DNA of 64,000 nt, from NCBI RefSeq assembly GCF_014217565.1, contig NZ_CP043661.1:2170001-2234000 (forward strand), given 5' to 3'. The stretch's first letter is position 1, and every line of letters begins with the position of its first letter. This DNA comes from Kribbella qitaiheensis. Its GTDB lineage: Bacteria > Actinomycetota > Actinomycetes > Propionibacteriales > Kribbellaceae. Positions 1,669 through 23,431 of the stretch are shown piece after piece. The position numbers and the translations under genes are program-made. Below the pieces are notes generated by a model, which saw nothing but the letters and a program-made list of their open reading frames with translations, was not told the DNA's origin and searched no databases.

Positions 1669-2319
1669 TCAGGAAGGCCGCACTTCCCGCCCAAGAGCCG
1701 CAGTGACGGCCCGCTGGTGGACGAGGCCGGTGCGCACGAGCTTGGCCTCCGGGGTGAAGCAGTCCACGATCGTCATGTGGTTGGCCGCGGGGCATACCCC
1801 GCCGTCGACGATGACGGACACCGCGAGGCCGGAGACGGCGAGGAAGGCATGGACCTCGTCGAGGGTCACGGCGGGACCACGGTCATTCGGCCCCGCGTCG
1901 CCGGAGATGTTGGCCGTCGTCGCGGCGACGGGGACCTTGGCCCGTGCCGCCAGTTCGCCGAGGACTCCGGGCGCCATGGTGGTAAGCGCCGGCGAGCCGA
2001 CGGCGGCATGGCGTGCGGCGTCGTCGGGGTCTCGCCATGGCAGGAGGAGTGCGAGGTCACCGGGCCAGAACTGCTCGGCGAGTTTCCGTGCTTCGGCGCC
2101 GAGTTGGAAGTGCTGCTCGCAGATGGCGAGTGAGGGGACGACGTAGACGAGGGACTTGCCGCTGGGGCGCCGCTTGCCCGCGAAGATGCTGCCGGAGGCG
2201 TCCGCGTTGCTGGCGTTGGCGCAGATCATGTACCAGCGGTTGGTGGGGACGATGACGAGCTCTCCGGCCTCGATGGCACGGGCTGCAGTGTCGAGTTCGC
2301 CGGGGTGAATCGTGCGCAT
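1669..2319 (-). CDS. Sua5/YciO/YrdC-family protein
   Basis: 216 residues from an ATG preceded by AGGAG at a good distance (the frame is open further upstream, but that part overlaps the PhyH gene). Typical YrdC features are the start-proximal PTNRWYMICANA, the KRRPSGKSLVYVV block (the K-R-x3-K substrate-binding signature) and a mid-protein FWPGDLALLLP. The family binds threonine, bicarbonate and ATP and makes threonylcarbamoyl-AMP, or in antibiotic pathways carbamoyl-AMP for transfer. Its place as last gene of a coupled metabolic operon, four bases after PhyH, argues for a pathway-specific acyl- or carbamoyl-adenylate role rather than tRNA modification. That role is inferred. Confidence 0.8.
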   Translation of the reverse strand: MRTIHPGELDTAARAIEAGELVIVPTNRWYMICANASNADASGSIFAGKRRPSGKSLVYVVPSLAICEQHFQLGAEARKLAEQFWPGDLALLLPWRDPDDAARHAAVGSPALTTMAPGVLGELAARAKVPVAATTANISGDAGPNDRGPAVTLDEVHAFLAVSGLAVSVIVDGGVCPAANHMTIVDCFTPEAKLVRTGLVHQRAVTAALGREVRPS

Positions 2320-2323
2320 GGTG

Positions 2324-3088
2324 CTACTCCTGGAAGGTAGGCGCGGGGACATCCCTGAGTGGCGGGTAGTCGAGCCACGGGTCGCGAAGGGCTTCGAGGC
2401 GACGACCCGCGTGGTCCGGGTGGGAAACGCGAAAGTACGCCATCACCCTGGGGAAGGGCATCAGGTTCTTGGCCACCGTGTGAGGAACGAGGTGGTGCAT
2501 CAGCAGGACGTCCCCCGGCATGCCGAGAAACGGAGTCCCGCGTTCCCGGTCGATCTCCGGCGCAACCTGCTCCGTCATCCCGAGTGACCACTCACCGGCG
2601 AACCAGCGGGCCATGGCGACGTGCCCACCGGGGAGATAGTGCAGGGCCCCGCACTGCGGGTCGCTGATGTTGGACAGGACGACGCCAACGAGCAGGGAGA
2701 ACGTACGCAGTTCGCGCGGGTCCAGGTGCGGGCAGGAGACGCCATCGACGTGCATGGCCTTCTCCGGTTGCACGCCGGGGAACTCGCCTTCGGGCACGCG
2801 AATCTGGATCTGGGAGGTCGTGACCGGGGCGGCGTCACCGAGTAGATCGACGACGAGCCCAGTCGCGCCGGTCTCCGTGTAGAGGGAGAGCAGCTCTGCG
2901 CTGTCTCCCAGTTCCGGGGCGAAGGTGCGCCGGGAGTACGCGGGTATGTCCTCCGGAGTCATTTCCCTGCGGTACGACGCGTCGATCAGGGAGACGGCTC
3001 GCTTAACCAGGCCGGGGGCTGCCAGCCCGCGTCGTATGAGGACGCCGTCTCGTTTGAAAGTCGCCTTCTCCTCAGCTGTGAGACTCAT
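2324..3088 (-). CDS. PhyH-type Fe(II)/2-oxoglutarate dioxygenase
   Basis: 254 residues. The start chosen is the ATG reading MSLTAEEK; it lies inside the 3' end of the creatininase-family gene (17-base overlap). The fold signature of phytanoyl-CoA hydroxylase-like enzymes is present: the H-x-D pair at H113/D115 (AMHVDG), a distal histidine near H203 (HHLVPHTVA) and an arginine for 2-oxoglutarate nearby (R214 or R220). These enzymes hydroxylate or desaturate small molecules and are frequent in secondary metabolism. The substrate is not predictable from sequence. Confidence 0.8.
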   Translation of the reverse strand: MSLTAEEKATFKRDGVLIRRGLAAPGLVKRAVSLIDASYRREMTPEDIPAYSRRTFAPELGDSAELLSLYTETGATGLVVDLLGDAAPVTTSQIQIRVPEGEFPGVQPEKAMHVDGVSCPHLDPRELRTFSLLVGVVLSNISDPQCGALHYLPGGHVAMARWFAGEWSLGMTEQVAPEIDRERGTPFLGMPGDVLLMHHLVPHTVAKNLMPFPRVMAYFRVSHPDHAGRRLEALRDPWLDYPPLRDVPAPTFQE

Positions 3089-3908
3089 TGGCCCTCCGTA
3101 CGTCGGTCGGTTCGTGCGGTGTGGGTCGGACGAGCCGATCGAGGATGTCCGTGCATGCATGGAGAGCAGCGGTGACGAGGGTCTGGCCGTGCTCCGCGGT
3201 GGCGTGGCGCGGGTCGCCGCCGATGACACCGTGCGCGGAGATCGCGGGACTGCCGGATGACCAGGGCCAGGTGACGCCGCGGCCGAAGACGAGGCGCTGG
3301 ATCTCCTCCCGCTGGCCGAGGTCGGGGATGGACCCGTTGGGGAGGAGATCCAGCCGTACGTGGTCGGGGGCGAGGGCGAGCATGAGGGAGGTCTCGCGGA
3401 TGCCGGCGTGAACCTCAGGGAATTCGTCGGCGGCCTGGAGCTGACTGGCGGCAAGGGAGCCGGGGTTGACCACGCAGGTGGCTACGTCGTGCGTGCGCTG
3501 GAGCTGGTGCACGAGGGCCTCTAGGACGCCCTTGTTGCCGCCATGGCCGTTGACGATGAGGATCGCCTGTGCCGGTGTGGAGCGGACGTACTCCCCCACG
3601 AGCGTCTCGATCAGGGAGGTGTAGAGCGCGATGTTCAAGGTGATGGTGCCGGACGCCCACACGTGCTCCGGGGAAAGCCCGTAGGGCACAGGTGGCACGA
3701 CCCAGAGGTCGTACCGGTCCGCGACATGCGTGGCCAGTCGGGCGGCGAAGCGCTCGGCGATGACGGCGTCGGTATTGAGCGGCAGGTGCGGGCCGTGCTG
3801 CTCCAGCGACCCCACCGGCAGGCAGAGAATCGACTGCTCACTCAACTCGGACGAGACGCACGGGGCCGTCAGCCTGCCGTACGACCTGTCCTCGCCTTCA
3901 GCCGTCAC
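3072..3908 (-). CDS. Creatininase-family amidohydrolase (MftE/ArfB-like)
   Basis: 278 residues from a GTG that overlaps the methyltransferase stop (GTGA). The metal-binding signature is clear: GSLEQHGPHLPLNTDA with E36, H38 and D47, then NGHGGN at 120-125, and a downstream GIRE. The family comprises metal-dependent amide hydrolases such as creatininase, the mycofactocin protein MftE and a deformylase of F420/riboflavin-like pathways. Together with a radical-SAM-like protein upstream this resembles the way MftE is used in mycofactocin maturation, but no precursor peptide is visible. An upstream extension of the frame (to 4250) overlaps the methyltransferase gene and is not coding. Confidence 0.8.
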   Translation of the reverse strand: MTAEGEDRSYGRLTAPCVSSELSEQSILCLPVGSLEQHGPHLPLNTDAVIAERFAARLATHVADRYDLWVVPPVPYGLSPEHVWASGTITLNIALYTSLIETLVGEYVRSTPAQAILIVNGHGGNKGVLEALVHQLQRTHDVATCVVNPGSLAASQLQAADEFPEVHAGIRETSLMLALAPDHVRLDLLPNGSIPDLGQREEIQRLVFGRGVTWPWSSGSPAISAHGVIGGDPRHATAEHGQTLVTAALHACTDILDRLVRPTPHEPTDVRRANESHS

Positions 3909-4702
3909 TTCCTGCCCCGCCGGCCGAGCCGGATGAGGAATTCGTTCTCCTCGGGAAAAGTGTCGTTGTCGCTGAAATCGGTCAGCCGGTTCTTCACAGC
4001 GGCCTCGAACTCCTTCAACCGGTCGCCGAAGAGATGGGGAGCGGCGAAGGACGTGGAGTAGAGGTAGCCGAGGATGCTCTCGGCGGACCAGATGCGCTGG
4101 ACGGGGACGCGGACTTCCTCGACCTCGTCGAAGGGCGACTCCTCCATGATCTCGCTGTAGGGGCGGTTGTGGTGCTGGAAGGTGCCGGTCCCCGCGCGGC
4201 GCTCCTCCCCCAGGAAGCTCTTCACCACATCCCGGACGGCTTCCTTCCAAGGGCTGCCAGCAACCCAGAAGCTGTTGTCCCCAAAGATCGCGACCACGCC
4301 GTCAGGAGCGACCTGGCCGTCGAGGAGGGCCAGGACGGCGGCTTGGTCGAGCCAGTGGAACGCCCGGCAGATGGTGACGAGTTCGGCCTGCCAGCCAGCA
4401 GGTGGGCTGAAGTCCTCAGCCGTGCTCTGGACGAGCAACAGGCTGGACCCCTCGGGGAGCTTCGGCCGCAGCGCCAACTCGGCCGCGGCGAGCATGTCGG
4501 CGTCGTTATCGACGGCGATGATGTCGCCGAAGCGGCCGACGAGCGCCTCGGCCACAAGACCTGTCCCCGTGCCGACGTCCAGGAGCCGGCGGGGGCCGTC
4601 GTTGCGTACGGAGGCGGCGCGGTCGAGTACCGCTGCGACATCCTCGGGGATGCCGGGGCGGAACTGGCGGTAGTACGAAGTGGTACCGGTGAAGAGGCTC
4701 AT
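3905..4702 (-). CDS. Class I SAM-dependent methyltransferase
   Basis: 265 residues. The SAM-binding glycine motif LLDVGTGTG lies at 40-48, followed by the acidic ribose-binding residue in IIAVDNDADML and a post-II motif, as in UbiE/COQ5-like small-molecule methyltransferases. ATG start overlapping the HAD stop (ATGA); its stop overlaps the creatininase-family start. It is expected to methylate an intermediate of the operon's pathway; acceptor unknown. Confidence 0.82.
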   Translation of the reverse strand: MSLFTGTTSYYRQFRPGIPEDVAAVLDRAASVRNDGPRRLLDVGTGTGLVAEALVGRFGDIIAVDNDADMLAAAELALRPKLPEGSSLLLVQSTAEDFSPPAGWQAELVTICRAFHWLDQAAVLALLDGQVAPDGVVAIFGDNSFWVAGSPWKEAVRDVVKSFLGEERRAGTGTFQHHNRPYSEIMEESPFDEVEEVRVPVQRIWSAESILGYLYSTSFAAPHLFGDRLKEFEAAVKNRLTDFSDNDTFPEENEFLIRLGRRGRK

Positions 4703-5364
4703 GTGACGCTCCCTGCTGCGAGGTGTTCGATGTGCGTGGCGGCTGCCGCCAGGTCCGTTGCAACGAGTACACGACTGTCAACGACCAATGATTCATCGGG
4801 GACTTGGCGACCGCGGGATATCCAGACGGCCCTGAGGCCCGATTCCACGGCTCCCACAATGTCGCAGGTCCAGTCGTCGCCGACGTGGATCACGCGACCG
4901 GGGCCGACCCCGAGTTGGTCAAGGACAGTGTGGAAGGCGCGCGGGTCCGGTTTGGTGTGGCCGATGCGGCAGGAGGGGAAAAAGTCGCTTACCCATGGGG
5001 AGAGCAGGCCGCGTAGTCCCTCGGTGTCGGCGTCGACGCAGGTGACGTTGGACAGCGTGACCACAGTCGCCACGGCACTGACTCGGCGCAGCGCCTCCGT
5101 GGTGCCGGGAAAGAGTCGGAACGGGGCCGGGGCAAGGTCGCGGGGAAAGGCTTCCGAGGGCATCTCCAACGCCTCGCAGACCTCCGCCACCACGGCGTCG
5201 GTGAGCGCTGGTTGGGTGTGGAGACTGGCCCGCATGACCGACCGAGCCTCAGCCGCTGGCAGCGGGGAGGCTTCGGTCAGTCGCATCGTCAGACCGGGGC
5301 CGTCGGCGGTGCCGAGGGTTCCGCCGACGTCGACCGTTACCAGGAGCGAGGGTGCGGTGGTCAT
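4699..5364 (-). CDS. HAD-superfamily hydrolase with altered motif I
   Basis: 221 residues. HAD landmarks are motif I at residue 12 (TVDVGGTLG), motif II serine/threonine near 98 (TLSNV), the lysine in HTKPDPRAF and motif IV VGDDWTCD near 160. Motif I reads D-V-G-G-T instead of D-x-D-x-T, so the acid/base aspartate used by phosphatases is absent; dehalogenase-like or unusual phosphatase activity is possible. It is coupled on both sides (TGATG with the upstream gene, ATGA with the methyltransferase). Confidence 0.78.
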   Translation of the reverse strand: MTTAPSLLVTVDVGGTLGTADGPGLTMRLTEASPLPAAEARSVMRASLHTQPALTDAVVAEVCEALEMPSEAFPRDLAPAPFRLFPGTTEALRRVSAVATVVTLSNVTCVDADTEGLRGLLSPWVSDFFPSCRIGHTKPDPRAFHTVLDQLGVGPGRVIHVGDDWTCDIVGAVESGLRAVWISRGRQVPDESLVVDSRVLVATDLAAAATHIEHLAAGSVT

Positions 5365-5807
5365 CAGGGCTTCTCCGTAGTCGTCGGCAGGGCGGAGACG
5401 ATGGCTTCGACGCGTGCCTCCCGGATGGCGGTCGTGGTGGACTCGGACAGGTAGGTCAAGACGTAGCGCAGCTCAGCCGCGTCCAGCGCCTCCAGGGATC
5501 GCCCCTCCTCTGCTGCCACCTCCTGCAGGTCGGCTGGAATGGTTCGCGGTCGCAGACCGTGTGGCAGGTGGAGCGTCCCCTGCCACACGGCGCCCAGGTC
5601 GGGAACGGCGGAGTGGTCCACCGGACGCAGCACGGTGACGTCGTCCAGGGTCAGGATGCGGACAGGGACCGACGAGCTTCCCACGTCGAGGCTGCCCTTG
5701 AGGAAGGTGTTATGTCCGTCGAGCCGCTCGGAGAGCACCAGCAGCGGTCCGTCCGGGCCGTGGCTGACTGTGCCGGTCACGGGTAGGTTCAGCGATGTGC
5801 TGGGCAT
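5364..5807 (-). CDS. Conserved-type protein of unknown function in the metabolic operon
   Basis: 147 residues from an ATG with GAGGAG eight bases upstream; the longer open frame to 5915 would lie deep inside the enolase gene. The N-terminal half reads like a small beta-barrel (short alternating hydrophobic strands around VTGTVSHGPDGPLLVL), the C-terminal third like helices. No signal peptide or membrane segment. The start overlaps the enolase-family stop by 19 bases and the stop abuts the HAD start (TGATG), so it is made together with the enzymes. I do not recognise a family; it could be a scaffold or carrier-binding partner. Confidence 0.7.
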   Translation of the reverse strand: MPSTSLNLPVTGTVSHGPDGPLLVLSERLDGHNTFLKGSLDVGSSSVPVRILTLDDVTVLRPVDHSAVPDLGAVWQGTLHLPHGLRPRTIPADLQEVAAEEGRSLEALDAAELRYVLTYLSESTTTAIREARVEAIVSALPTTTEKP

Positions 5808-6860
5808 GTGGTGCTCCTCGGGATCGTGCCGAGACCAGGGGTGTCCGGCAAGGCGATGCGTCCGTGCTCGAGGCGAAGTGGAACGTCGTACAGGCGCTGG
5901 CGTCGCGGCTCCCACTGGAGCCGGTACTCAACTGCTGGCACCGCGTCGGGGAAGGCTGCCGCGAGGTGGAGGCCGGGAACGATCGAGCGACCATGTGGGT
6001 ATACGGGGACAGCCTGGGCTTGGGCCAGCTCGACGATCTGCGTCGCGCGAGTGAGCCCGCCGCAGCCGACAGCGTCGAGAGTCAGCGCGCTCGGACGGAC
6101 GTACTGGATGAGATCGGCGGGGTCCTCGTCGCAGTGGACACGCTCGCCGACGGCCAGAGGCAACCCTGTGGCCGTGACAAGTCCGTAGATATTCAGGTCG
6201 TGCTGCGGTAGCGGATCCTCCAGCCAGCGCAGGCCGGCGACGTCCACGCGCCGCGCGAAAGCCATGGCCACGACTGGAGTCCAGGTGCCGACGGCATCGA
6301 CGGCGACAGGGGCACCGATGGCATCGGAGCAACGCTCCACAGCTCGTGCCATTCGCGTAGCGGCCTCGTCGGAGGAGTCCTTCGCGGCTCGGCGAAGTCC
6401 CCACTTGGTGAACCGCCAGCCGCCCGTCGCGACTCCGCGCAACACATCCAGGTCGTCGCAACTGGTGAGGTCTTGGGAGAGCCACGAGGCATAGGCCGCC
6501 ACGGATACCTGCGGCGTCCCGGTCGCAAGGAGATCTGCAACAGAGCGCGAGGTGAGGCGACCGTGGAGATCCCACGCTGCACAGTCGACCGCGCCGACCG
6601 CCCACGACGCGACGTCGGAGGGTGCGATGCGAGCAGCCTGCCGCAGTCGGTTGAGTAGGCCATGGTGGTCCGCGGCGTCGGTCCCCTGCACCACCGACGC
6701 CAGTGTGTCTCTCGCGTAGACCCCGATCCGCTCGCTGACCGGACCATAACAGCCGGTCTCTCTCGCAGTGTGGACCATGACGAACAGCGCGTCGTCTCCC
6801 GGGCCCGGCGCCCTCGCGTACCTCGGTGACCTCCAGCCGTCCGATCGTGGAAGAGGTCAT
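5789..6860 (-). CDS. Enolase-superfamily (mandelate racemase/muconate cycloisomerase-like) enzyme, one apparent frameshift
   Basis: The main frame (from an internal ATG at 6778) encodes a barrel with the superfamily signature: a catalytic-type lysine in GWRFTKWGLRR, metal ligands in VAVDAVGTW, LRWLEDPLP and LAVGERV, and a late histidine in VYPHGRS. The missing N-terminal strand is found in another frame starting at an ATG at 6860 (MTSSTIGRLEVTEVREG), which overlaps the phosphoketolase stop as ATGA like the other operon genes. Deleting one G in the run GGGCCCGGG near 6800 joins the two into a normal N-terminal domain (GPGDDALFVMVHTARETG). The family abstracts a proton alpha to a carboxylate. 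Either a recent lesion or a sequencing indel; substrate unknown. Confidence 0.75.
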
Positions 6861-8908
6861 CGGACCACCTCATGGGTCGCGAGCAGGAGCCCGGCGGCCC
6901 GCTCAACCCCTGCCCGGTCCATGCCAAGGGTGTGGGCGAGCAGTCGCTGGGGCATGGGGCCGGGTGGTTCTTGCCAGCCGATGACATCGACGGCGCGGTT
7001 GAGCCGTCCGGCCAGGAGGCTCCAGACAGCGGCCGGGTGGCCGAGGGTGAGAACGAGAACAGCGGCGCGGGCGCCGAAGTAGTGGTCGATCTCCTGGGCA
7101 CTGAGCCCGCGCGGCCACAGCTGGGCAGAGCCGAGGACGGTCAGATCGAGCAGCGTCACCACGCGGATGCGGCAGCCGTGGCGTTCCCGGAGGTAGTCCA
7201 CCGCGTCAGCGGCGACGGCAGCCGGGATGTCACCCGCCGTGACAACCGTGAGGTCAGGCTCTTCGTCGTCGCTCAGGTGCGGCCAGATCGCGAGGCCCCG
7301 CTCGCATTCCTCCTTGATCGTCTCCACGGGGTGAGCGGTGCGGGTGTACTTTCCCGCGACAACGAGGTTGACCCTGTCGACCGAGTCGAATGCCTCGTCC
7401 AGAACGGCGGCAGTGCGCGCCGGATCGGCCGGTGTCAGCACGTGCACCGCAGGAACACACAGGCCAAGGAGCGTGGTCGCAAGAGACGGATCACCGTGGC
7501 TGTGGACGTTGTTCCAGCCGTAGGACGTGAGCAGGAGGTTGAGGCTGGGAAGCCCTCGCGCGCCGACCATGCGCCGCTGCTTGATGTGGCTCACCAAGCC
7601 GCTGGTGAGCAGTGGTGCGAACGCTTCGTACGAGACCATCACGCCTCGGCGCCCGCTGGCAGTCCAACCGGCGAGCCACTCCAACAGCACTTCCTCCGCG
7701 AGGAGTTCGTGCGTCCAGCACTCGCCGACGAGATCCGGGAGTCGGTTGGAGGACAGCTCATCCGGGCTGAGGACGCGGAAGTCCCCGCGCGTAGCGTGCT
7801 GCTTGACGACGTCGGTGACCGCCTCGGCGAAGGTCCTTACCCGCCGGTACGCCGAGGCTCGCTCCTCCGCGCCTAGGGACTTGACGGGAGCGAGGGAGCA
7901 CCAGCGAACCGCAGTCACCGCCTCGGCGAGCGCACCGCGAGGACGCCCGTCCGGGCCGAAGAGATCCGCAGGCCGGTAGGAGGCGAGCCAGTGTTCCAGT
8001 CTCGTGAGCTGATCCGGGTCGGCGCGTGGGCTGACCAGCGGAGTCTTGTGCAGGTCGGGGGTGCCCAGCAGCGCACGGTCTCCGAGCGATGCGGGGCCAC
8101 CCCATCCCTTCACGCAACGCAGGATCAGCACCATCCGTCGTCCCATGAGCGTGTAGTCCAGCGCGTTCCACAACGCCGTCTGGAAGATGCTGTGCTCGTG
8201 CGGAGTCCCCGTCACGACATGGACTACCTGGGCCACCCAGCCCAGGCCGCCGAAGTACGCACACAGCTCTTCGTCGTTCATCGCGCCGAGCAGCGACTGC
8301 TGCCCCATACGGAATCCATTGACATGCACGATGGGCAGGACCGCGGCATCAGGAAGAGCTCTCTGCCCCAGCCAGCTCGCGGCGGTCGTGGGGGTCTCGC
8401 ACTCACCGTCCCCGATGATGGGCACGACAACCCTGTCCGGGGCGTCGAGTGCGGCGCCCTGGGCGAAGGGAAGACAGCCACCGAGCCGTCCGCCCAGGAA
8501 GCCGCCGGCGGGGAGCGCGGGCGAGACCTCAGATCCGAGGCCGTCCACGTCCGGGAACGCCTGGACCAGTCGCCGCAGGCCATCCGCATCCGGGCCGAAC
8601 CGCGACCGTACCTTCCCGAGTTCCCCGGTCACCCAGGTCGCGGAGAGCTGGACGACGCCAGCGTGTCCTGCGCCCAAGAGCGGCACCATATCCACTCGCC
8701 GGTCCAGGCGCCCGGCGGCGAGCACGATGTGGGACAACGCCCACGCGGTGCCGGGCACGGTACCCCAGTGCCCGGAGGGGCGTTCCTTCACCTGCTCGGC
8801 GACCAGCGGCTCCGCGAGCAGAACGTTGTCCCGCAGGTGCAACTGGCAGACCGAGGCGTAGACGGTCGCCCGCCACAGAGCATCGGCCAGAACGGCGGTC
8901 TCGGTCAC
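6857..8908 (-). CDS. Phosphoketolase-like thiamine-diphosphate enzyme
   Basis: 683 residues, somewhat shorter than the roughly 800 of xylulose-5-P/fructose-6-P phosphoketolase. Matching landmarks: GHWGTVPGTAW (46-56), LLGAGHAG (78-84, in place of GPGHG), FPDVDGLGSEVSP (118-130), the ThDP-binding GDGECETPTTAASW (167-179) and LPIVHVNGFRMG. Phosphoketolases cleave ketose phosphates to acetyl phosphate; the altered GAGHAG and shorter tail suggest a different substrate. It is coupled by ATGA on both sides, between the radical-SAM-like and enolase-family genes. It would supply or consume a C2 or sugar-phosphate unit of the pathway; this is inference. Confidence 0.75.
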   Translation of the reverse strand: MTETAVLADALWRATVYASVCQLHLRDNVLLAEPLVAEQVKERPSGHWGTVPGTAWALSHIVLAAGRLDRRVDMVPLLGAGHAGVVQLSATWVTGELGKVRSRFGPDADGLRRLVQAFPDVDGLGSEVSPALPAGGFLGGRLGGCLPFAQGAALDAPDRVVVPIIGDGECETPTTAASWLGQRALPDAAVLPIVHVNGFRMGQQSLLGAMNDEELCAYFGGLGWVAQVVHVVTGTPHEHSIFQTALWNALDYTLMGRRMVLILRCVKGWGGPASLGDRALLGTPDLHKTPLVSPRADPDQLTRLEHWLASYRPADLFGPDGRPRGALAEAVTAVRWCSLAPVKSLGAEERASAYRRVRTFAEAVTDVVKQHATRGDFRVLSPDELSSNRLPDLVGECWTHELLAEEVLLEWLAGWTASGRRGVMVSYEAFAPLLTSGLVSHIKQRRMVGARGLPSLNLLLTSYGWNNVHSHGDPSLATTLLGLCVPAVHVLTPADPARTAAVLDEAFDSVDRVNLVVAGKYTRTAHPVETIKEECERGLAIWPHLSDDEEPDLTVVTAGDIPAAVAADAVDYLRERHGCRIRVVTLLDLTVLGSAQLWPRGLSAQEIDHYFGARAAVLVLTLGHPAAVWSLLAGRLNRAVDVIGWQEPPGPMPQRLLAHTLGMDRAGVERAAGLLLATHEVVR

Positions 8909-10002
8909 CGCACACCAACCAAGGGCTCACCGGCGAAAGTGAAGTACCACAAGGGCCGGTAGCACTCCCATGCGGCGGGTCGCAGACCAGATGAACCCAT
9001 GATGTCCTCGATCACCACGCGTGCTTGGAGGTAGTGCTCCAGGTCCTGGGCTCCGGGGGTACGCAGGCCCGCCATGACCGAGTTATGGGCCTGGTAGACC
9101 TGGAAATTGGGGAACTCGGTGACGTACGGAGCCAGCGCACCGACGCCCGCCTGCAGCGCTGCGAGTCCGTCCAACCCCACGATGTAGGTGAACGAGGTGC
9201 CGTGACCGGCGGCCAGCGCACGGCGGAGCACTCCTGGCATCTCTGATGCGACGAGGACGGCCTTGCTGGCCTTCAGTAACAGATCCCGGCGGGTAAAGCA
9301 CTCCGCTGTCAGCCGCAGGACGAAGGGAGCAACATAGGTAGCGAGTTGATCGAACGCCTCCTCGGACCCCAACACCGACGTCAAGAACCCGATGCGCGCG
9401 TTCACGCGATGCTCGCTGAGCACGGTCCGCAGAGTGCGCAGATGCTGCACCGCCGCCGCCTCCCGCTCGAAGCACCCGGTCGAAACGGTCACCTCTCGCA
9501 GTTCCGCCAGGTCGCGACGCGGATGCTGCTCACGCAACGCCGCAAAGAGCTCCCGCAGGTCCCGCTCCTCCGAGAGACGAGGATCAGCCGCAGCCTCCAG
9601 GGTGTTGGGGCAGAAGGCGCACCCCACACAACGGCTGCGCGCATTCGGGTTGAGCGTGAGCGCCGCGCCGCCGTCGCGGAAGTATCCGCCGACTGCCTCG
9701 TCCGCCTCAATACGCTCGACAGTTCCAACCGGCGCGTCGCCCAGCGTGAGATGCCCACCCCTGAGCCGGAACGGGGACCCCGTGACGTTCAGGGGAACAA
9801 TGAGCTGCCAGGGCACCGATGGGGCGCTCGCCAGTCGGACCCGGACGCGTGCGCGGTAGCGCGGCAGATCGGAGTTGATGCCGTGCAGGTTGACCGCGAT
9901 GAGCAGCGCGTCCTCGACGGGCACACGATACTTGGCCGCGAGCCGTTCCACCTCCCCGAGCATGGAGGTGGTGCTGGCTTGTCCGCTTAGTAGTGCCGTC
10001 AT
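8905..10002 (-). CDS. Radical-SAM-like iron-sulfur protein with a CxxCxxC cluster motif
   Basis: 365 residues from the ATG reading MTALLSGQ; the longer frame upstream has no supporting ribosome site. The cluster motif is RCVGCAFCPNTLE with cysteines at 125, 128 and 131, followed by TIM-barrel-like alternation and a conserved-looking VTVSTGCFERE. The spacing C-x2-C-x2-C is one residue shorter than the classic C-x3-C-x2-C. It is the first of the coupled genes and its stop overlaps the phosphoketolase start. Likely a radical enzyme on a small molecule; other Fe-S chemistry cannot be excluded. Confidence 0.7.
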   Translation of the reverse strand: MTALLSGQASTTSMLGEVERLAAKYRVPVEDALLIAVNLHGINSDLPRYRARVRVRLASAPSVPWQLIVPLNVTGSPFRLRGGHLTLGDAPVGTVERIEADEAVGGYFRDGGAALTLNPNARSRCVGCAFCPNTLEAAADPRLSEERDLRELFAALREQHPRRDLAELREVTVSTGCFEREAAAVQHLRTLRTVLSEHRVNARIGFLTSVLGSEEAFDQLATYVAPFVLRLTAECFTRRDLLLKASKAVLVASEMPGVLRRALAAGHGTSFTYIVGLDGLAALQAGVGALAPYVTEFPNFQVYQAHNSVMAGLRTPGAQDLEHYLQARVVIEDIMGSSGLRPAAWECYRPLWYFTFAGEPLVGVR

Positions 10003-10146
10003 GCGCGTGCTCCGTCCAGTCAGCCGGAGGAGATGGGGGCGCCGGCGGCCCGTGGAGCAGTCAGCCGCCGCCGGCACAGAGACTGCCGTGGAACGCGAGG
10101 ACGCCGAACGCCGTCCTGGGATTTCTCCGGGACGTCCTGGGGCGTT

Positions 10147-10845
10147 TCAGTCGCTGCCGTGCGCCAGCGAACGCAGATGACTCACCAGAGCAGAGACATC
10201 CCGCAGGTCAGCAAGCACAACAGCCGCCCCGGCTGCCCGCAGCTCGGCGACGCTATGGATGCCAGATGCCACCGCGATGACATGCGCATCAGAGTCGTGG
10301 GCGGCCCGAACGTCGCGAGGGGTGTCCCCGATGAGCACGACGGGGGTGTCGTGCGGAAAACCATGGGCCTGCTGAATGTGCTCTCGGGCCACCTTCACGA
10401 GGGCGGCACGGTCCTCCGAGTGCTCTCCGTACGCCCCGCACTCCATATCCAGCAGCACATCGAGCCCAAAGGCCCGCAGCTTCACACCGGCGTTGGCCGC
10501 GATGTTCCCGGTCAGCACCGATGAGACCATGCCCGGCTCCACTGCCACCGCGGCGAGAGCTTCAGGCACGCCGGGAAGAGCACGACCGCGCGCCGCGAGG
10601 TCCGCGTCACGCCCCACACCCGCAGCCTCCAAGGCGAGCACGATGCGCTCCCAAGCCGGTGATTGCATCCCGTGGGCCCGGAACATCTCGGCGAGGATCA
10701 AGCGGTCGGTCCGGCCTTCCGTACGGGGCGGTTGGAGGGGCGCATGGCCGGCGACCGCTGCGAAGGCCGCCGCGTAGATCTCCTTGCTGACACCGGAATT
10801 CTCGATCAGCGTGTGGTCGATGTCCCAGAGCACGATGAGTGGCAC
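10147..10845 (-). CDS. HAD-superfamily phosphatase
   Basis: 232 residues from a GTG (MPLIVLWDIDHTL). Motif I is the complete D8-x-D10-H-T, with motif II in SSVLTGNIA and motif IV in VVLIGDTPRDV, typical of phosphoglycolate-phosphatase-like HADs with a helical cap. The frame is open to 11085 but that part runs into the divergent regulator gene. It is separated from the radical-SAM-like gene by 144 bases without a gene, and is the likely promoter-proximal gene of the minus-strand operon, 94 bases from the divergent regulator. Confidence 0.78.
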   Translation of the reverse strand: MPLIVLWDIDHTLIENSGVSKEIYAAAFAAVAGHAPLQPPRTEGRTDRLILAEMFRAHGMQSPAWERIVLALEAAGVGRDADLAARGRALPGVPEALAAVAVEPGMVSSVLTGNIAANAGVKLRAFGLDVLLDMECGAYGEHSEDRAALVKVAREHIQQAHGFPHDTPVVLIGDTPRDVRAAHDSDAHVIAVASGIHSVAELRAAGAAVVLADLRDVSALVSHLRSLAHGSD

Positions 10846-10939: not shown

Positions 10940-11719
10940 GTGAATGAGCGACTGCGCTCCGCACTCGTACAACGCGGACTGGGGGTAGAGGAGATGGCGA
11001 AAGCCTGCGCGGTCGACCCCAAGACGGCCAGCCGCTGGATCGGCGGCCGGGTTCCCCACCGTCGGCATCGCTGGACCGTCGCCAACCTGCTCCGTGTGGA
11101 CGAGACTTACCTGTGGCCAGAGGCAGACCAAAAGACGTCGCGCTTCGGTTCCCCCCAGTCCGAGATCGCCGATACATACCCGAACCGCGCGAGCGTCCCC
11201 CGCGACGTCTGGATCTCCCTGCTGTTAGGGACGATGAAACAGATCGACGTCCTGGTCTTTTCCGGCACCTTCTTCGCCCAGACCAACCCTCACATCGCGC
11301 GCATGCTCCAGGAACGCGCGCAGGCCGGGGTGCGAGTGCGGCTGTGCTTCGGCGATCCGACGGGAGAAGCCGTACGCATCCGTGGCCACGAGGAAGGCAT
11401 CGGCGACAGCCTGGCCGCCAAGATCAGGGCTTCGCTCACCTACTACCGCACCCTCGTCGGCCACCCGGGCTGCGAGATCCGGTTGCACGACACGACGCTG
11501 TACAACTCGATCTTCCGCTACGACGACCACCTCCTGGTCAACCCTCACATCTGGGGCCAGCCGGCCAGCGCAAACCCGCTCTTCCAGCTCCGCCGCACCG
11601 CCAACGCAGAATGGTTCGACCGGTACGACGAGAGCTTCGAAGCGGTCTGGACGACCGCGCGCCTTTGGGCGCCCGACAACGCCGACAGTAAGGAGTACCG
11701 CCGCAGTGGGCAGGATTGA
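10940..11719 (+). CDS. XRE-family regulator with C-terminal phospholipase-D-like (DUF5919-type) domain
   Basis: 259 residues from a GTG. Residues 1-60 form a Cro/C1-type helix-turn-helix (LGVEEMAKACAVDPKTASRWIGG). The rest resembles a PLD-like sensor domain found behind such HTHs in actinomycetes (ISLLLGTMKQIDVLVFSGTF; VRVRLCFGDPTGEAV; LHDTTLYNSIFRYDDHLLV). It probably controls the divergent metabolic operon and/or its own operon with the Nudix gene, whose start lies inside its last codons. Ligand unknown. Confidence 0.75.
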   Translation: MNERLRSALVQRGLGVEEMAKACAVDPKTASRWIGGRVPHRRHRWTVANLLRVDETYLWPEADQKTSRFGSPQSEIADTYPNRASVPRDVWISLLLGTMKQIDVLVFSGTFFAQTNPHIARMLQERAQAGVRVRLCFGDPTGEAVRIRGHEEGIGDSLAAKIRASLTYYRTLVGHPGCEIRLHDTTLYNSIFRYDDHLLVNPHIWGQPASANPLFQLRRTANAEWFDRYDESFEAVWTTARLWAPDNADSKEYRRSGQD

Positions 11720-12173
11720 GTACTACAACGACCCCAAGGCTCCCAAAGCCAATACCCTGATTCCCGCCAGCGACATGCTGGTCGTGAACGATGAAGGCGA
11801 GATCCTCCTGCAACGGCGCCGCGACACCGGCCAATGGGCCCTGCCCGGAGGTGCCCAGGACATCGGAGAGACCGCAGCCCAGTGCGCGGTGCGCGAATGC
11901 GAGGAAGAGACCGGCATCGTCGCCGAGGTCACCGGATTCCTCGGCGTCTATACCAACCCGCATCACATCGTCGCCTACACCGACGGTGAGATCCGCCAGC
12001 AGTACGAGACCACCTACATCGGCCGCCCCATCAGCGGTGAACCCACCATCAACGACGAAGCCGACGGCGTCCGTTTCGTCCGGCCCGACGATCTCGACGA
12101 CTACGACATCCACCCCAGCATGCGCCAGCAGATCGGCGACTACCTGGCCGGCACCTACCCCTACCTGGGATAG
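11706..12173 (+). CDS. Nudix hydrolase
   Basis: 155 residues from a GTG that overlaps the regulator gene by 14 bases. The Nudix box is complete (GAQDIGETAAQCAVRECEEE followed by TGI; pattern G-x5-E-x7-R-E-U-x-E-E-x-G-U). The family hydrolyses nucleoside diphosphates linked to another group. Pairing with the XRE/PLD-like regulator suggests the regulator senses a nucleotide-like compound, or that the enzyme clears one made by the divergent operon. The frame is open far upstream but that part lies inside the regulator gene. Confidence 0.85.
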   Translation: MGRIEYYNDPKAPKANTLIPASDMLVVNDEGEILLQRRRDTGQWALPGGAQDIGETAAQCAVRECEEETGIVAEVTGFLGVYTNPHHIVAYTDGEIRQQYETTYIGRPISGEPTINDEADGVRFVRPDDLDDYDIHPSMRQQIGDYLAGTYPYLG

Positions 12174-12190: not shown

Positions 12191-12757
12191 TCAGGGCACC
12201 ACGCCCAGCTCGGTCGCCGCCGCCCGCACCCGACCCACGCTCTCGTGGATCTCAGGTGCGGCTCGGCGGATGAATCGCCCGACGACACTGTCCTCGCCGT
12301 AGCGGCCCAGGATCTCGGCCACCCGCTCATCCGACGTCGTACGCCCGCCGTTCGGTGTCGTGGTCATGTCGCAGTAAACCAACGCGTCCACCAACGGAAG
12401 ATCGTCAAGCAACGGGAACTCGTCGGCCAGCTCTGCCCGCAGCCCGCGCTCCTCGGCCTCCATGAGCGCGAAGGAGTGGTTCGCCACCAAGCGCGCGACT
12501 CGATCGTCGACCGCGTCGAGCGTCCGCAGATGACGTGCACCGTCGAGCGGATGAAAGCCGGTAACGACCAGCGGCGGCGCGTACCCGACGTCGTGCAGCG
12601 CGGCAGCCGCCTCCAGCGCCTCAGCCCTGTCGCCCACGAGGGGGGCGAGTCGCTTGGCGCAGGCCGCCACCCCCTGCGTGTGCGCCCACCTCCGTGGCAG
12701 GCTCTCACTCAGCAGTGCTTCTGCCAGGTCGTATGCATGCCCGAGTGTTGTCGTCAC
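12191..12757 (-). CDS. HD-domain hydrolase
   Basis: 188 residues from a GTG (VTTTLGHAYDL); no good ribosome site marks the start, and a further upstream start is possible. The HD phosphohydrolase signature is present: WAHTQGVAACA, LEAAAALHDVGYAP and a late aspartate in VDALVYCDMTT. Such proteins hydrolyse nucleotides or phosphate esters with bound metal. It converges on the Nudix gene with 17 bases between the stops. Confidence 0.75.
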   Translation of the reverse strand: MTTTLGHAYDLAEALLSESLPRRWAHTQGVAACAKRLAPLVGDRAEALEAAAALHDVGYAPPLVVTGFHPLDGARHLRTLDAVDDRVARLVANHSFALMEAEERGLRAELADEFPLLDDLPLVDALVYCDMTTTPNGGRTTSDERVAEILGRYGEDSVVGRFIRRAAPEIHESVGRVRAAATELGVVP

Positions 12758-12803
12758 CCCGGGAGGATACGGCGGAAGCAGTGCGCAGGCATGGGGATTT
12801 GTG

Positions 12804-12962
12804 ATGGCAAGCAGGGCGAACTCCGCCACAACCAAGGACGCGGATACTCTGCCGACACCGGGAGTCATCCCCCGCGAGACCGTCGAGGACCTCACTGCGA
12901 CGCTCGCCGAGTTCGAGGCGGTCGCGCAGCGTTGGAGGGCCGGGGTCAATGGCGATCCCTGA
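12804..12962 (+). CDS. Small protein paired with a DUF3024 gene
   Basis: 52 residues from an ATG (a GTG three bases upstream is also possible). Acidic, with a predicted helix (VIPRETVEDLTATLAEFEAV). Its end overlaps the start of the DUF3024 gene by 14 bases, an arrangement I believe recurs for DUF3024 genes in actinomycetes. Function unknown. Confidence 0.55.
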   Translation: MASRANSATTKDADTLPTPGVIPRETVEDLTATLAEFEAVAQRWRAGVNGDP

Positions 12963-14206: not shown

Positions 14207-14342
14207 CTAAATGGCCCACGGCTATCACTCCCAAGTCTTATCCACTCGTCTGGCCGGGCGCCCCCGAATCAGCTGTGCTGATGCCTGAGCAGCACAGCTC
14301 AGCGCAAGAGTGCGAAGGGGTCCCCGTAGCGAGGCGTGCGCG

Positions 14343-14370
14343 GGGGCCTTGACCCTGGTTCTTGGACACG
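14343..14370 (+). repeat. IS3 left terminal inverted repeat
   Basis: Begins GGGGCCTTGACCC and ends GGTTCTTGGACACG. It pairs with 15703-15730 with three mismatches. Confidence 0.85.
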
Positions 14371-14399
14371 CTGAATCCAGCATCTGCTGGAGAAGCGAG

Positions 14400-14780
14400 A
14401 TGATCCTGACCATGGCCCGCAAGAACTACTCCGATGAGTTCCGTCGGCAGGCCGTCGACTTGTACGAGTCCACCCCGGGCGCGACGCTGAAGAGCATCGC
14501 GGCTGATCTGGGGGCCGAACGGGCAACCCTGAAACGCTGGGTCGACCTGTACGGGACGGGCAAGAAGACGGCCGCGGACGGCACGACAAGCACCCGTCGC
14601 GTGTCCAGCCCGAGAAGCGGCGGCTCGCAGCCACCGTCGGAACCGGAGACCCCCGAGCAGAAGATCGCCCGCCTCGAGACCGAGAACGCCGCGTTGCGCG
14701 GCGACAAGACCAAGCTCACCACCGAGCGTGAAATCCTCCGCCAGGCGGCCAAGTATTTCGCCGGAGAGACGAACTGGTGA
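14400..14780 (+). CDS. IS3 transposase OrfA (helix-turn-helix subunit)
   Basis: 126 residues from an ATG with GGAGAA about seven bases upstream; an ATG at 14412 (MARKNYSDEFRRQAVDLYES) is the alternative. It has the HTH_Tnp_1 fold (LKSIAADLGAERATLKRW) and a C-terminal leucine-zipper-like helix (KIARLETENAALRGDKTKL) used for oligomerisation. It overlaps OrfB by four bases (GTGA), so OrfB is produced by coupled re-initiation or frameshifting. Confidence 0.9.
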   Translation: MILTMARKNYSDEFRRQAVDLYESTPGATLKSIAADLGAERATLKRWVDLYGTGKKTAADGTTSTRRVSSPRSGGSQPPSEPETPEQKIARLETENAALRGDKTKLTTEREILRQAAKYFAGETNW

Positions 14781-15694
14781 GTCGCTTCCAGTTCGTCGCC
14801 GACCACTCCACCACCTCTACCAGGTCATGTCCTGGCTGGAGCGTGAAGCGGCTATGTGAGCTCGTCGAGATCGAACGATCGTTGTACTACGCCTGGATCA
14901 AGGCAGCCCCGGCCCGCCGGGTCCGGGGCGCCGCGGACACCCAGCTCGCAGACCGGATCCGGAAGGTCCACACCGACGACAACACCTGCGGTGCACCGCG
15001 GATCACCGCCGAGCTCAACGACGGTGTCCCCGCTGATCAGCGAGTGAATCACAAGCGGGTCGCGCGGGTGATGCGCGTCAACGGCATCGCCGGCTACCGG
15101 CGACGACGCAAGGTCCGCACCACCATCCCCGAGCCCGCGGACCAGAAAGTGCCCGACCTACTGAACCGAGACTTCACCGCCCCGGCCCCGAACCTGCGCT
15201 ATGTCGGGGACATCACCTACCTACCACTTGCCGACGGCAACAACCTCTACCTGGCGACCGTGATCGACTACTACTCACGCCGCCTGGCCGGCTGGGCGAT
15301 CGCTGACCACATGCGCACCGAACTCGTCGAGGACGCGCTCAAGGCCGCGCAGACGACCCGTGGAAACCTCGCCGGAGCGGTCTTTCACAGCGATCACGGG
15401 TCGGTCTACACGTCCAAGGACTACGCCCGGCTGTGCCACGACCTGGGTATCACCCAATCCAAGGGCGCCGTGGGCACGAGTGCCGACAACAGCCTCGCCG
15501 AATCGTTCAATGCTTCGTTGGAACGCGAGGTCCTCCAAGACGACAACACCTGGCCCGACGAAGCCACCTGCCGCCGCCAGACCTTCCGATGGCTGGCCCG
15601 CTACAACACCCGCCGCCGGCACTCCTGGTGCCGCTACCAATCCCCGATCACCTACGAAACCAGCTACGCCGCTACGCTCCCGTCAGCGGCATAA
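14777..15694 (+). CDS. IS3 transposase OrfB (DDE integrase)
   Basis: 305 residues from a GTG overlapping the OrfA stop. It has an N-terminal HTH_21 region (KLRxIHxD-like IRKVHTDDNTCGAPRITAEL) and an rve catalytic core with the three acidic residues in YVGDITYLPL, FHSDHGSVYTS and NSLAESFNASLERE. Full length for the family and uninterrupted. Confidence 0.92.
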   Translation: MSRFQFVADHSTTSTRSCPGWSVKRLCELVEIERSLYYAWIKAAPARRVRGAADTQLADRIRKVHTDDNTCGAPRITAELNDGVPADQRVNHKRVARVMRVNGIAGYRRRRKVRTTIPEPADQKVPDLLNRDFTAPAPNLRYVGDITYLPLADGNNLYLATVIDYYSRRLAGWAIADHMRTELVEDALKAAQTTRGNLAGAVFHSDHGSVYTSKDYARLCHDLGITQSKGAVGTSADNSLAESFNASLEREVLQDDNTWPDEATCRRQTFRWLARYNTRRRHSWCRYQSPITYETSYAATLPSAA

Positions 15695-16658: not shown

Positions 16659-17702
16659 TCAGCCCTGCACCGGCCCCGGCACGTGCTCCAGCGGATACAG
16701 CTTCTTCCAGAGTCGAGCCAAAAACTGCTGGTCGTCCATCTCGTCCTCATACCCCGAGGCGACGCTGAGTGCATGCGGATGCAATCCTCTGTGGTCGCCT
16801 TCAAGTAGTTGGACCAACTCTGACTTGAAGGTCGTCAACTCCTCGTCATCAGGCGCAGCGATGGCCACACGGCGTATCAGGTAGTGGTAGTTGTTGAAGC
16901 GAATCTCCGGGTGGACGTACTTCTCCATGAAGTTCAGGACAGTGGTGAACGGAAGCGCCCCAGGGTGCAACCAGTAGCGGTCGGCGACCTCCAGTCGGGG
17001 ATCCTGCAAGACATGCCGCTCCGGCTCGGGAGTCAGCGCGCAGATCTGGTGACCGCCCGCCTCCGTCTGCGAGTTCGGCACGAACCGCACAATGAAGTGC
17101 CCGTTCTCAAAACTGGGGATCTGCTCAACAGCCGGCTTGGCGAATTCGCTCAGATCTTCCCCGGTCCACCGCGCCCAAGTCAGTCTCCGCCGCACCAACC
17201 GGGCGTCCAGCCAGTCACCGGCCAAGGCGAATCCCGAACAGGTCTCGTGACCCGTTGGACCGAGCAGGTCGGCGATCGGGATCTTCACAGCATCAGGAAT
17301 TCTGCCGCCAACAGCCGGCGTGTGGAGGCCGCGACGCCCTTCCGGGTGCTCGACGACAGCCATGAACGCCACCACGAAAGCAGTCGCGTCGTGAACTCTC
17401 GTCGCCTCCGCACCGCAGACATGTTGCCGGTCATGCTTGAACCCATCGAAGCCCATCATCCGCATCCGGGAGTGCACCTGCGCTGGGTCCTCGCAGTAAG
17501 CAACCCGCCGCCGCTGGAGCGTGTCATCACCGAAAGCCGCGTGCCGCTTGTGTGAATGCCCGAGACCTCGGTCGATCGACGCGTACACGCGCTGCACCCG
17601 CGGATCACACTTCGACACCGGCTCCAACCACGGTCGCTGCTTCTTGAACGCGGCGACATACTCGACCGCACCCTTCAGCTCAAGCTCCCTCTGGTTATTC
17701 AT
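16659..17702 (-). CDS. Orphan toxin C-terminal domain fused to an immunity-like domain
   Basis: 347 residues from an ATG with AAGGAAG eight bases upstream. Residues 10 to about 220 match the C-terminal domain of the 18748-20406 toxin (RPWLEPV; GLGHSHKRHAAFGDD; RVAYCEDPAQ; EATRVHD; DLLGPTGHETCSGFAL). The last 110 residues match the separate immunity-like proteins at 17787 and 18388 (RYWLHPGALPFTTVLNFMEK; FKSELVQLLEGDHRGLH; FLARLWKKLYP). It lacks the long N-terminal region of the toxins, so it is an orphan module in which the toxin and immunity frames were joined. It may act as an antitoxin or decoy, or be a recombination reservoir. Confidence 0.65.
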   Translation of the reverse strand: MNNQRELELKGAVEYVAAFKKQRPWLEPVSKCDPRVQRVYASIDRGLGHSHKRHAAFGDDTLQRRRVAYCEDPAQVHSRMRMMGFDGFKHDRQHVCGAEATRVHDATAFVVAFMAVVEHPEGRRGLHTPAVGGRIPDAVKIPIADLLGPTGHETCSGFALAGDWLDARLVRRRLTWARWTGEDLSEFAKPAVEQIPSFENGHFIVRFVPNSQTEAGGHQICALTPEPERHVLQDPRLEVADRYWLHPGALPFTTVLNFMEKYVHPEIRFNNYHYLIRRVAIAAPDDEELTTFKSELVQLLEGDHRGLHPHALSVASGYEDEMDDQQFLARLWKKLYPLEHVPGPVQG

Positions 17703-17786
17703 CAACTAACTTCCTTCCACGCCTTTTTGGTCAGGAACCGGGCGGCTAAACAAATGTGACCGCGAGGTCCATGCAGTACGGCGCAA

Positions 17787-21466: not shown

Positions 21467-21871
21467 CTACTCAGGTGGATTATCCGCGTGATCGACCCAG
21501 CCTGCCTCAATGTCTTCCTTGGTCATCCCTGAATTGAGTTCTACGTGGCCGTTGTAGGCCTCATCGACGGCCCAAATGCGCCCGCCCGGATCCTCAGGAA
21601 GAATAGAGCGGGCCCACAGCATGACCTCGATTGCCTGTTCATCTGTGCCATCGGTGTAGATGCCGTCGCGGGCGCGGAAGTGGAAGATCTGGAACGCCGG
21701 TTCTCCCGGCCGATCGACCCGTGCCGCGACGTCGACAGGCGATTCGTCAGGTGCCTCTGGTACGAGGGAAGTCACCTGTGCCCCGAAGCCGTCGACGACC
21801 GCTTCCTCGAAACGCTCCTTGGCCAGGTCGAACCCGTCCACATCGGGCGACAGGATGATGATGTTCGGCAT
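21467..21871 (-). CDS. Candidate immunity protein for the REase-fold toxin
   Basis: 134 residues. Its ATG overlaps the toxin stop by one base (TAATG), the closest coupling in the module. Acidic, no signal peptide or membrane segment; begins with a short strand (NIIILSPDVDGFDLAKERF). A near-identical copy lies at 20470-20904. I do not recognise a named family; the immunity role is inferred from position. Confidence 0.6.
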   Translation of the reverse strand: MPNIIILSPDVDGFDLAKERFEEAVVDGFGAQVTSLVPEAPDESPVDVAARVDRPGEPAFQIFHFRARDGIYTDGTDEQAIEVMLWARSILPEDPGGRIWAVDEAYNGHVELNSGMTKEDIEAGWVDHADNPPE

Positions 21872-23427: not shown

Positions 23428-23431
23428 GGCG

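Follow-up and report, generated by a model that had tools for sequence, protein, structure and literature searches.

A probable biosynthetic operon of radical SAM, phosphoketolase-related and enolase-superfamily genes, conserved and mobile among actinomycetes, in Kribbella qitaiheensis

The window analyzed here, a 64,000-nucleotide stretch of the Kribbella qitaiheensis genome (contig NZ_CP043661.1, positions 2,170,001 to 2,234,000), carries ten genes in the same direction on the minus strand between positions 1669 and 10845. With a probability of roughly two in three, they form an operon that spreads by horizontal transfer and makes a small molecule not yet described, the product and every reaction step being inferred from the genes. 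Biosynthesis fits better than catabolism or defence because of the patchy, partly plasmid-borne spread of the gene set, its tight coupling, a regulator linked to one subtype and the mix of enzymes encoded. That the molecule is an undescribed one is probable because the set recurs in distant hosts and two central enzymes, a radical S-adenosylmethionine (SAM) enzyme and a phosphoketolase-like (XFP-like) enzyme dependent on thiamine pyrophosphate (TPP), have unusual active sites.

The ten open reading frames (ORFs) all lay at the positions given in the original prediction, which had described nine coupled genes with a HAD gene upstream, and this layout was borne out. The first gene in the subtype to which the window belongs (type A) encodes a HAD-family hydrolase (HAD1, 10147-10845, with a GTG start at 10845 or 10833; Pfam HAD, 1.6e-10). 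It is followed after 144 bases by the radical SAM gene (8905-10002), the gene for the XFP-like enzyme (6857-8908, 683 aa; XFP_N, 2.1e-62), an enolase-superfamily (MR/MLE) gene (5789-6860; MR_MLE_C, 1.5e-32), a gene for a small OmdA/YdeI-like protein (5364-5807, 147 aa), a second HAD-fold gene (HAD2, 4699-5364; Pfam, 4.3e-9), a SAM-dependent methyltransferase (3905-4702; Methyltransf_11, 3.9e-9), a creatininase-family amidohydrolase (3072-3908; Pfam, 2.2e-55), a PhyH-type Fe(II)/2-oxoglutarate dioxygenase (2324-3088) and a Sua5/YciO/YrdC-family protein (1669-2319; Pfam, 2.1e-23). With the enolase start placed as in relatives, all eight junctions from the radical SAM gene to the YrdC gene were overlaps or gaps of at most 4 bases (radical SAM/XFP -4, XFP/enolase -4, enolase/small -19, small/HAD2 -1, HAD2/methyltransferase -4, methyltransferase/creatininase -4, creatininase/PhyH -17, PhyH/YrdC +4). 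Pfam and NCBIfam gave names to eight of the ten proteins (Sua5/YrdC, PhyH with a weak match at 3.1e-5, creatininase, methyltransferase, two HADs, MR_MLE enolase and XFP); the radical-SAM-like and small proteins, scanned alone, had no match in either database at E<=0.01.

Scanning for relatives of the radical SAM protein in one genome per species yielded 73 loci. Removal of 17 distant ones, among them a bin placed in Actinomycetota (L065), left 56 loci, referred to below as actinomycete, in which a gene was counted as present anywhere in the stretch taken (up to 10 kb per side). The XFP-like, enolase, HAD2 and small genes occurred together at 49 of these 56 loci, a recurrence of a four-gene core with the radical SAM gene which argues that the operon is not a product of chance, and the conserved co-occurrence on which the original prediction hinged was thereby found. 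A related methyltransferase was present at 52 loci, PhyH at 33, YrdC at 32, creatininase at 22 and a gene with a GGDEF domain at 17, while HAD1, a regulator with a DUF5919 domain and a Nudix gene were each present at 14. From the trio expected to travel together, the XFP-like and enolase genes therefore belong to the core; creatininase (22/56), like HAD1 (14/56), is confined to a subset of loci and is not core. Among the seven loci lacking the full core, three reached contig ends (L033, L059, and L061) and two had a partial radical SAM match (L075 and L080); L011 had the enolase gene directly after the radical SAM gene, and L060 had no XFP, HAD2 or small gene.

A second ascertainment, designed to avoid query-driven counting, started from the small gene in 394 genomes of the class. 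Matches at E<=0.001 were found in 73 genomes, only four of them exceeding 100 bits, and in these four (the window's own genome and three others) the small gene adjoined HAD2 and XFP in every case. None of the next 16 matches (<=40.9 bits) had any query gene within about 1.5 kb on each side. The small protein also matched on three plasmids, all from Streptomyces and all already among the eight found by the radical SAM search. Copies of the operon are carried on plasmids of Streptomyces, Nocardia and Mycobacterium, the radical SAM gene was found in just 2 of 38 genomes of the genus Kribbella (the window's own included), and in the radical SAM tree Saccharopolyspora grouped with the window and a Streptomyces copy (support 100/98). 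The methyltransferase is not specific to the system, with relatives at 45.5%, 43.6%, and 41.4% identity lacking the core on the three Streptomyces plasmids examined.

Three architectures were distinguished, and they followed the radical SAM tree. Type A, that of the window, has the order radical SAM, XFP, enolase, small gene, HAD2, methyltransferase, creatininase, PhyH, YrdC. In type B, XFP stands close to the end and a second PhyH gene is added. Type C, found in Nocardia, Actinomadura, many Streptomyces and on a Mycobacterium plasmid, mostly consists of radical SAM, enolase, HAD, GGDEF, small gene, XFP and methyltransferase, with PhyH or further radical SAM proteins at some loci. The small gene was fused in one ORF with HAD2 at some loci and with GGDEF at others. 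At the 56 actinomycete loci, YrdC (32) and the GGDEF gene of type C (17) never occurred together, and seven loci had neither. The gene set is thus both conserved and mobile, each architecture having its own enzyme subtypes. Opposite the operon, on the plus strand, lie a divergent regulator (10940-11719; DUF5919, 2e-5, with a helix-turn-helix recognized by eye) and an adjoining Nudix hydrolase (11697-12173, start codon putative; NUDIX, 7.5e-22), a pair that had been noted previously and that was found to travel with the type A subtype.

Beyond the actinomycetes, a bin labelled Thaumarchaeota (L049) contained nine of the ten genes, HAD1 being absent and the small gene a weak match (30.4 bits). 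It also carried an ATP-grasp-like gene (E 0.0021, below the cut-off), with relatives at four actinomycete loci, and a different, receiver-linked GGDEF gene adjoining YrdC. The operon is on contig C19 of this bin, where about 20 kb on each side was read by eye, and an eIF-6 gene is on contig C21; the archaeal copy may reflect mis-binning. In Treponema lecithinolyticum (L069), the radical SAM gene was followed by XFP, HAD and ABC-transporter-like genes (the transporters recognized by eye). Three further loci (L065, L066, and L067) had a methyltransferase and, near the radical SAM gene in place of XFP, a TPP-dependent pair resembling sulfopyruvate/phosphonopyruvate decarboxylase.

A sequence search against solved structures was uninformative for the radical SAM protein, and its assignment comes from a fold model and its nearest solved folds. 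The AlphaFold2 model had a predicted local distance difference test (pLDDT) score of 90.7 and a predicted template modelling (TM) score (pTM) of 0.90, and included an N-terminal beta region. With Foldseek, radical SAM structures ranked at the top (E 6.8e-6 to 9ccb, at TM 0.43), with modest TM-scores (best 0.46 by query length in the best 50 rows) and with other barrels (8tnf and 3qtg) from rank 8 downward. VIA-align returned radical SAM proteins in all of its best 50 rows, the best being the lipoyl synthase 4u0o (Z 13.7, root-mean-square deviation 4.0, 229 aligned), with MqnE, HydG and PylB within 1 Z. Identity to solved radical SAM folds was at most 16% in the best 50 rows, and the Pfam Radical_SAM family was matched at E<=1 by 27 of 50 aligned family members (best 4.7e-8). 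The protein is predicted to have the radical SAM fold.

The canonical spacing of the radical SAM cluster cysteines is CX3CX2C. In an alignment of 55 of the 77 full-length rows (window included; the short or split L042, L064, L075, and L080 unused), C125, C128, and C131 were invariant in all 55, from actinomycetes to archaeal bins. They followed the pattern CX2CX2C without insertions in these rows and in all of the 22 further full-length rows, and the canonical spacing was found in none. The enzyme therefore shares the radical SAM barrel with the lipoyl synthase, MqnE, HydG and biotin synthase fold group, but differs from it in the CX2CX2C motif, the N-terminal beta region and the lack of an NCBIfam match. 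In PMC9431491, CX2CX2C denotes ferredoxin motifs.

The XFP-like enzyme stands apart from the ordinary phosphoketolase that the same genome encodes, scoring 211 bits to XFP_N against 572 for the latter. It was compared in 55 system sequences (short or partial rows L002, L003, L037, L057, and L064 left out) and 28 ordinary ones, with residue numbers, those of Arg442 and Lys605 included, tentatively placed on alignment columns by motif. The TPP motif GDGE, the active-site residues His64, His97, His320, and His553, and also Ser440, Asn549, and Lys605 were each kept in 55/55 system sequences; Glu479 was kept in 54/55 (Asp in one) and Arg442 in 49/55. On the other hand, His142, present in 28/28 ordinary enzymes, was Glu in 55/55 system enzymes, and Gln321 was Lys or Arg in 55/55 versus 0/28. 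The distance from a conserved Trp to the final His was five residues instead of eight in every system sequence and in no ordinary one, owing to a three-residue loop deletion that left the Gln546 and Asp547 columns empty; the loop was of full length in 28/28 ordinary enzymes. The His548 column held His in 32/55 system sequences. The active-site model of the Bifidobacterium phosphoketolase includes His142, Gln321, Gln546, His548, and Asn549 (PMC10547157).

A quick tree placed the 54 system sequences on one side of a single branch and the 28 ordinary ones on the other (SH-aLRT 100), with long branches meeting at the split itself (L008 and the short ordinary rows L124 and L128 left out). Compared with phosphoketolase (PDB 8io8 and others), the operon enzyme is homologous over nearly the whole protein and has the TPP site and four His, but is about 100 aa shorter, with His142 and Gln321 changed and the residues around Gln546-Asp547 lost. 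Because of these changed or lost residues and the split in the tree, it is XFP-related but should not be named phosphoketolase. The C2 or sugar-phosphate chemistry suggested earlier is uncertain, as the TPP site is kept but several phosphoketolase active-site residues are lost or changed. A second XFP-like gene in the Kribbella genome (G000:C1:400606-401558) is in several pieces, with a TGA inside one.

The original prediction required correction for the enolase gene, in which a single base near 6808 breaks the frame. What is left as an intact ORF (5789-6778) is about 27 residues short and, as the sequence stands, begins 78 bases past the XFP stop; in 9/9 relatives examined (eight loci and L088), the frame was open from a start codon overlapping that stop. 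The frameshift may be a true mutation or an assembly error. Both Pfam domains were present, and in 60/60 scorable rows the metal ligands D/E/E and the beta-7 His were kept, the dyad Asp being kept in 59 and replaced by Glu in one. The MR subgroup of the enolase superfamily has a KxK motif with two lysines; here, all 60/60 scorable rows had KW and then G, A, P, S, or R at this position, so that the second lysine was never found.

In HAD phosphatases, the second Asp of the DxD motif acts as acid/base. HAD2 kept the nucleophile Asp and had DxG in place of DxD in 62/62 scorable rows (window counted twice). The dephosphorylation proposed earlier is uncertain for HAD2 because the second catalytic Asp was absent in every scorable row. 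HAD1 had a PhnX-like match (4.7e-9) below that model's cut-off. PhyH kept HxD in 39/39 rows and the distal His in 38/38 scorable rows (window counted twice), with no solved-structure sequence match at E<=0.01. The YrdC protein scored 86.8 bits to TIGR00057 (L-threonylcarbamoyladenylate synthase, TsaC/Sua5), below the equivalog cut-off of 123.2; judged from the YrdC fold, the carbamoyl- or acyl-adenylate step suggested earlier is a possible one. The small protein was modelled as beta strands with a helical tail (pLDDT 87.5, pTM 0.61), a fold search gave no solved structure at E<=0.001, and 18 of 34 members of its family matched OmdA at E<=1 (best 1.8e-5).

Among known systems, the creatininase belongs to the same family as mycofactocin MftE, but its 144.6 bits fall under the curated NCBIfam equivalog cut-off of 172, and at E<=0.01 the ten operon proteins gave no match to any other mycofactocin model. 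The octosyl acid and nikkomycin-polyoxin pathways presumably resemble the operon in gathering a radical SAM enzyme, a phosphatase and a PhyH-type oxygenase around a small nucleotide-like molecule. They differ from it in that no enolpyruvyl transferase was found among the ten proteins. No description of the gene set was found among the matches listed in the openly licensed literature (covering combinations of the enzymes, the cysteine motif, pNF1 and GrpB), in line with the previous statement that it belongs to no known pathway, an absence that is no proof. The system is of a known kind, a biosynthetic operon; what appears new is two enzyme subfamilies of which we found no description.

For a biosynthetic route, the following steps are proposed. 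Acting on a small polar substrate, the radical SAM enzyme would perform either a radical rearrangement or a C-C bond step, and the XFP-like TPP enzyme would then cleave or transfer beside a carbonyl of the resulting product. The best clue is that in actinomycetes and candidate phyla, as well as in Treponema and the archaeal bin, a TPP step adjoins the radical SAM step, so that this product is probably carbonyl-bearing. At three loci from candidate phyla or related lineages, a decarboxylase-like TPP pair stands in for XFP, which points to an intermediate of the 2-oxo or alpha-hydroxyketone type. The enolase-type enzyme may take up the proton alpha to a carboxylate, in a dehydration or an epimerisation, the His-Asp dyad being the likely base. 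The methyltransferase and HAD2 would complete the core. TPP and Fe residues and metal ligands are kept in the XFP-like, PhyH and enolase families. Tailoring in type A may comprise hydroxylation by PhyH, amide hydrolysis by the creatininase and nucleotide-dependent activation by YrdC, with a GGDEF-type nucleotide enzyme taking the place of YrdC in other lineages. Such a late activation is plausible because YrdC and GGDEF both handle nucleotides and swap between actinomycete types. More tentative, and rather doubtful, is a logic common to bacteria and an archaeon, in which the product of a CX2CX2C radical SAM enzyme would be cleaved by a dedicated TPP enzyme and then activated interchangeably by YrdC or GGDEF, with a natural product or cofactor-like compound of a new class as the outcome. 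In actinomycetes, Treponema and the archaeal bin, the dedicated enzyme would be a phosphoketolase put to a new use, and in candidate phyla it would be the sulfopyruvate/phosphonopyruvate-decarboxylase-like pair.

Several points weigh against a biosynthetic operon with this route. Product, substrate and reactions are read here from genes alone, from which the order of reactions cannot be deduced. The end product may differ between lineages because the accessory parts (creatininase, HAD1, regulator and Nudix) vary, and YrdC and GGDEF are not mutually exclusive everywhere, since L049 carries both. As the XFP-like enzymes keep Ser440, Asn549, Lys605 and mostly Arg442, the substrate could still be a phosphorylated, sugar-like one. 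In the Kribbella window, the operon includes neither an exporter nor a resistance gene, and because its enolase frame is broken, this strain may no longer have a working pathway, unless the break is an assembly error. Overall, the original interpretation is partly supported.

An island for the degradation of an unusual sugar acid or aminated sugar, through enolase dehydration, TPP cleavage and HAD dephosphorylation, is unlikely, but would agree with MR/MLE enolases being nearest to sugar-acid dehydratases, with phosphoketolases being catabolic and most of the scored phosphoketolase residues being kept, and with permease-like ORFs that cluster in six loci (downstream of YrdC in L015, L016, and L018). 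It agrees less well with the changed XFP active-site residues and with the absence of a sugar transporter from the operon, and the combination of a radical SAM enzyme, a methyltransferase, PhyH and YrdC would be atypical for a degradative pathway.

A nucleotide-related signalling or defence system seems still less probable. Partners such as GGDEF (17/56 loci), DAC-like stretches (below cut-off in L070 and L082), YrdC and GrpB-like ORFs (by eye in eight distant loci) bind or transfer nucleotides, several loci are on mobile elements, and PADLOC gave one match, between the methyltransferase and mad2 (E 1.8e-11, over 142 of the 492 positions of the profile). However, this match spans only the methyltransferase stretch, PADLOC returned nothing at E<=0.001 for the other nine operon proteins, and most of the genes encode metabolic enzymes with intact cofactor sites.

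About equally improbable is a decaying remnant without function in this strain, which would be compatible with a biosynthetic origin. The enolase frameshift, a methyltransferase match split over two frames in G002 and HAD1 in pieces in L012 are consistent with decay, but the other nine frames are intact here and the enolase was read through in 9/9 relatives examined. A phosphonate pathway or phosphonate tailoring module is very improbable, as the PEP (phosphoenolpyruvate) mutase, phosphonopyruvate decarboxylase and alcohol dehydrogenase genes upstream in L042 and the PhnX-like match of HAD1, below cut-off, are countered by PEP mutase matches in 6/45 genomes, one being L042's own and five at just 34-40% identity. 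The phosphonate pathway was rejected for this operon, whose own genome (G000) yielded no match to PEP mutase at E<=1e-30.

Few known catalysts are as versatile as radical SAM and TPP enzymes, and here two strictly conserved, unusual active sites occur together in distant hosts. If the operon is biosynthetic as proposed, it would offer a defined, clonable gene set through which a new metabolite could be found along with two or more new enzyme reactions, and it would account for the 'hypothetical protein / phosphoketolase / radical SAM' annotations scattered over actinomycete plasmids. Apparently intact copies are present in Streptomyces, for example those of type A in Streptomyces aureocirculatus (L010) and on an S. 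goshikiensis plasmid (L004).

Around relatives of the operon genes, a GrpB/UPF0157-like ORF (named by eye) was close to distant radical SAM relatives in L062, L073, L074, L076, L077, L078, L079, and L081, whose hosts include Saccharibacteria, Nomurabacteria, Erysipelotrichaceae and Bacilli, among others; the two perhaps form a separate conserved pair. DAC (DisA)-like stretches, below the family cut-off, adjoined radical SAM relatives at L070:6250-7404 (E 0.0073) and L082:11124-11669 (E 5.7e-5). Upstream of the type C copy in an Actinophytocola bin, L042:2777-7702 encodes a PEP mutase with a cytidylyltransferase domain, phosphonopyruvate decarboxylase, an iron alcohol dehydrogenase and a LicD-like protein (by eye). 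On a Streptomyces plasmid, many Nudix, MazG, HIT, PIG-L and phosphotransferase genes stood beside a methyltransferase relative (L110:6822-17272).

Elsewhere in the window, an HD-domain gene adjoins the Nudix gene on the minus strand (12191-12949; HD, 9e-9), and ORFs resembling it by eye were seen in 11 loci. Transposase-like ORFs, also recognized by eye, lie at 14310-15694 (an IS3-type pair) and 29437-30531 (IS256-type). The proteins encoded at 16659-17705 and 18748-20406 are alike over a stretch by eye, the latter having no Pfam match at E<=0.001. A protein with a C-terminal Tox-REase-2 toxin domain (21871-23466) adjoins a gene with HerA-like helicase matches (23432-26125), and the region 21871-26125 looks like part of an integrative element.

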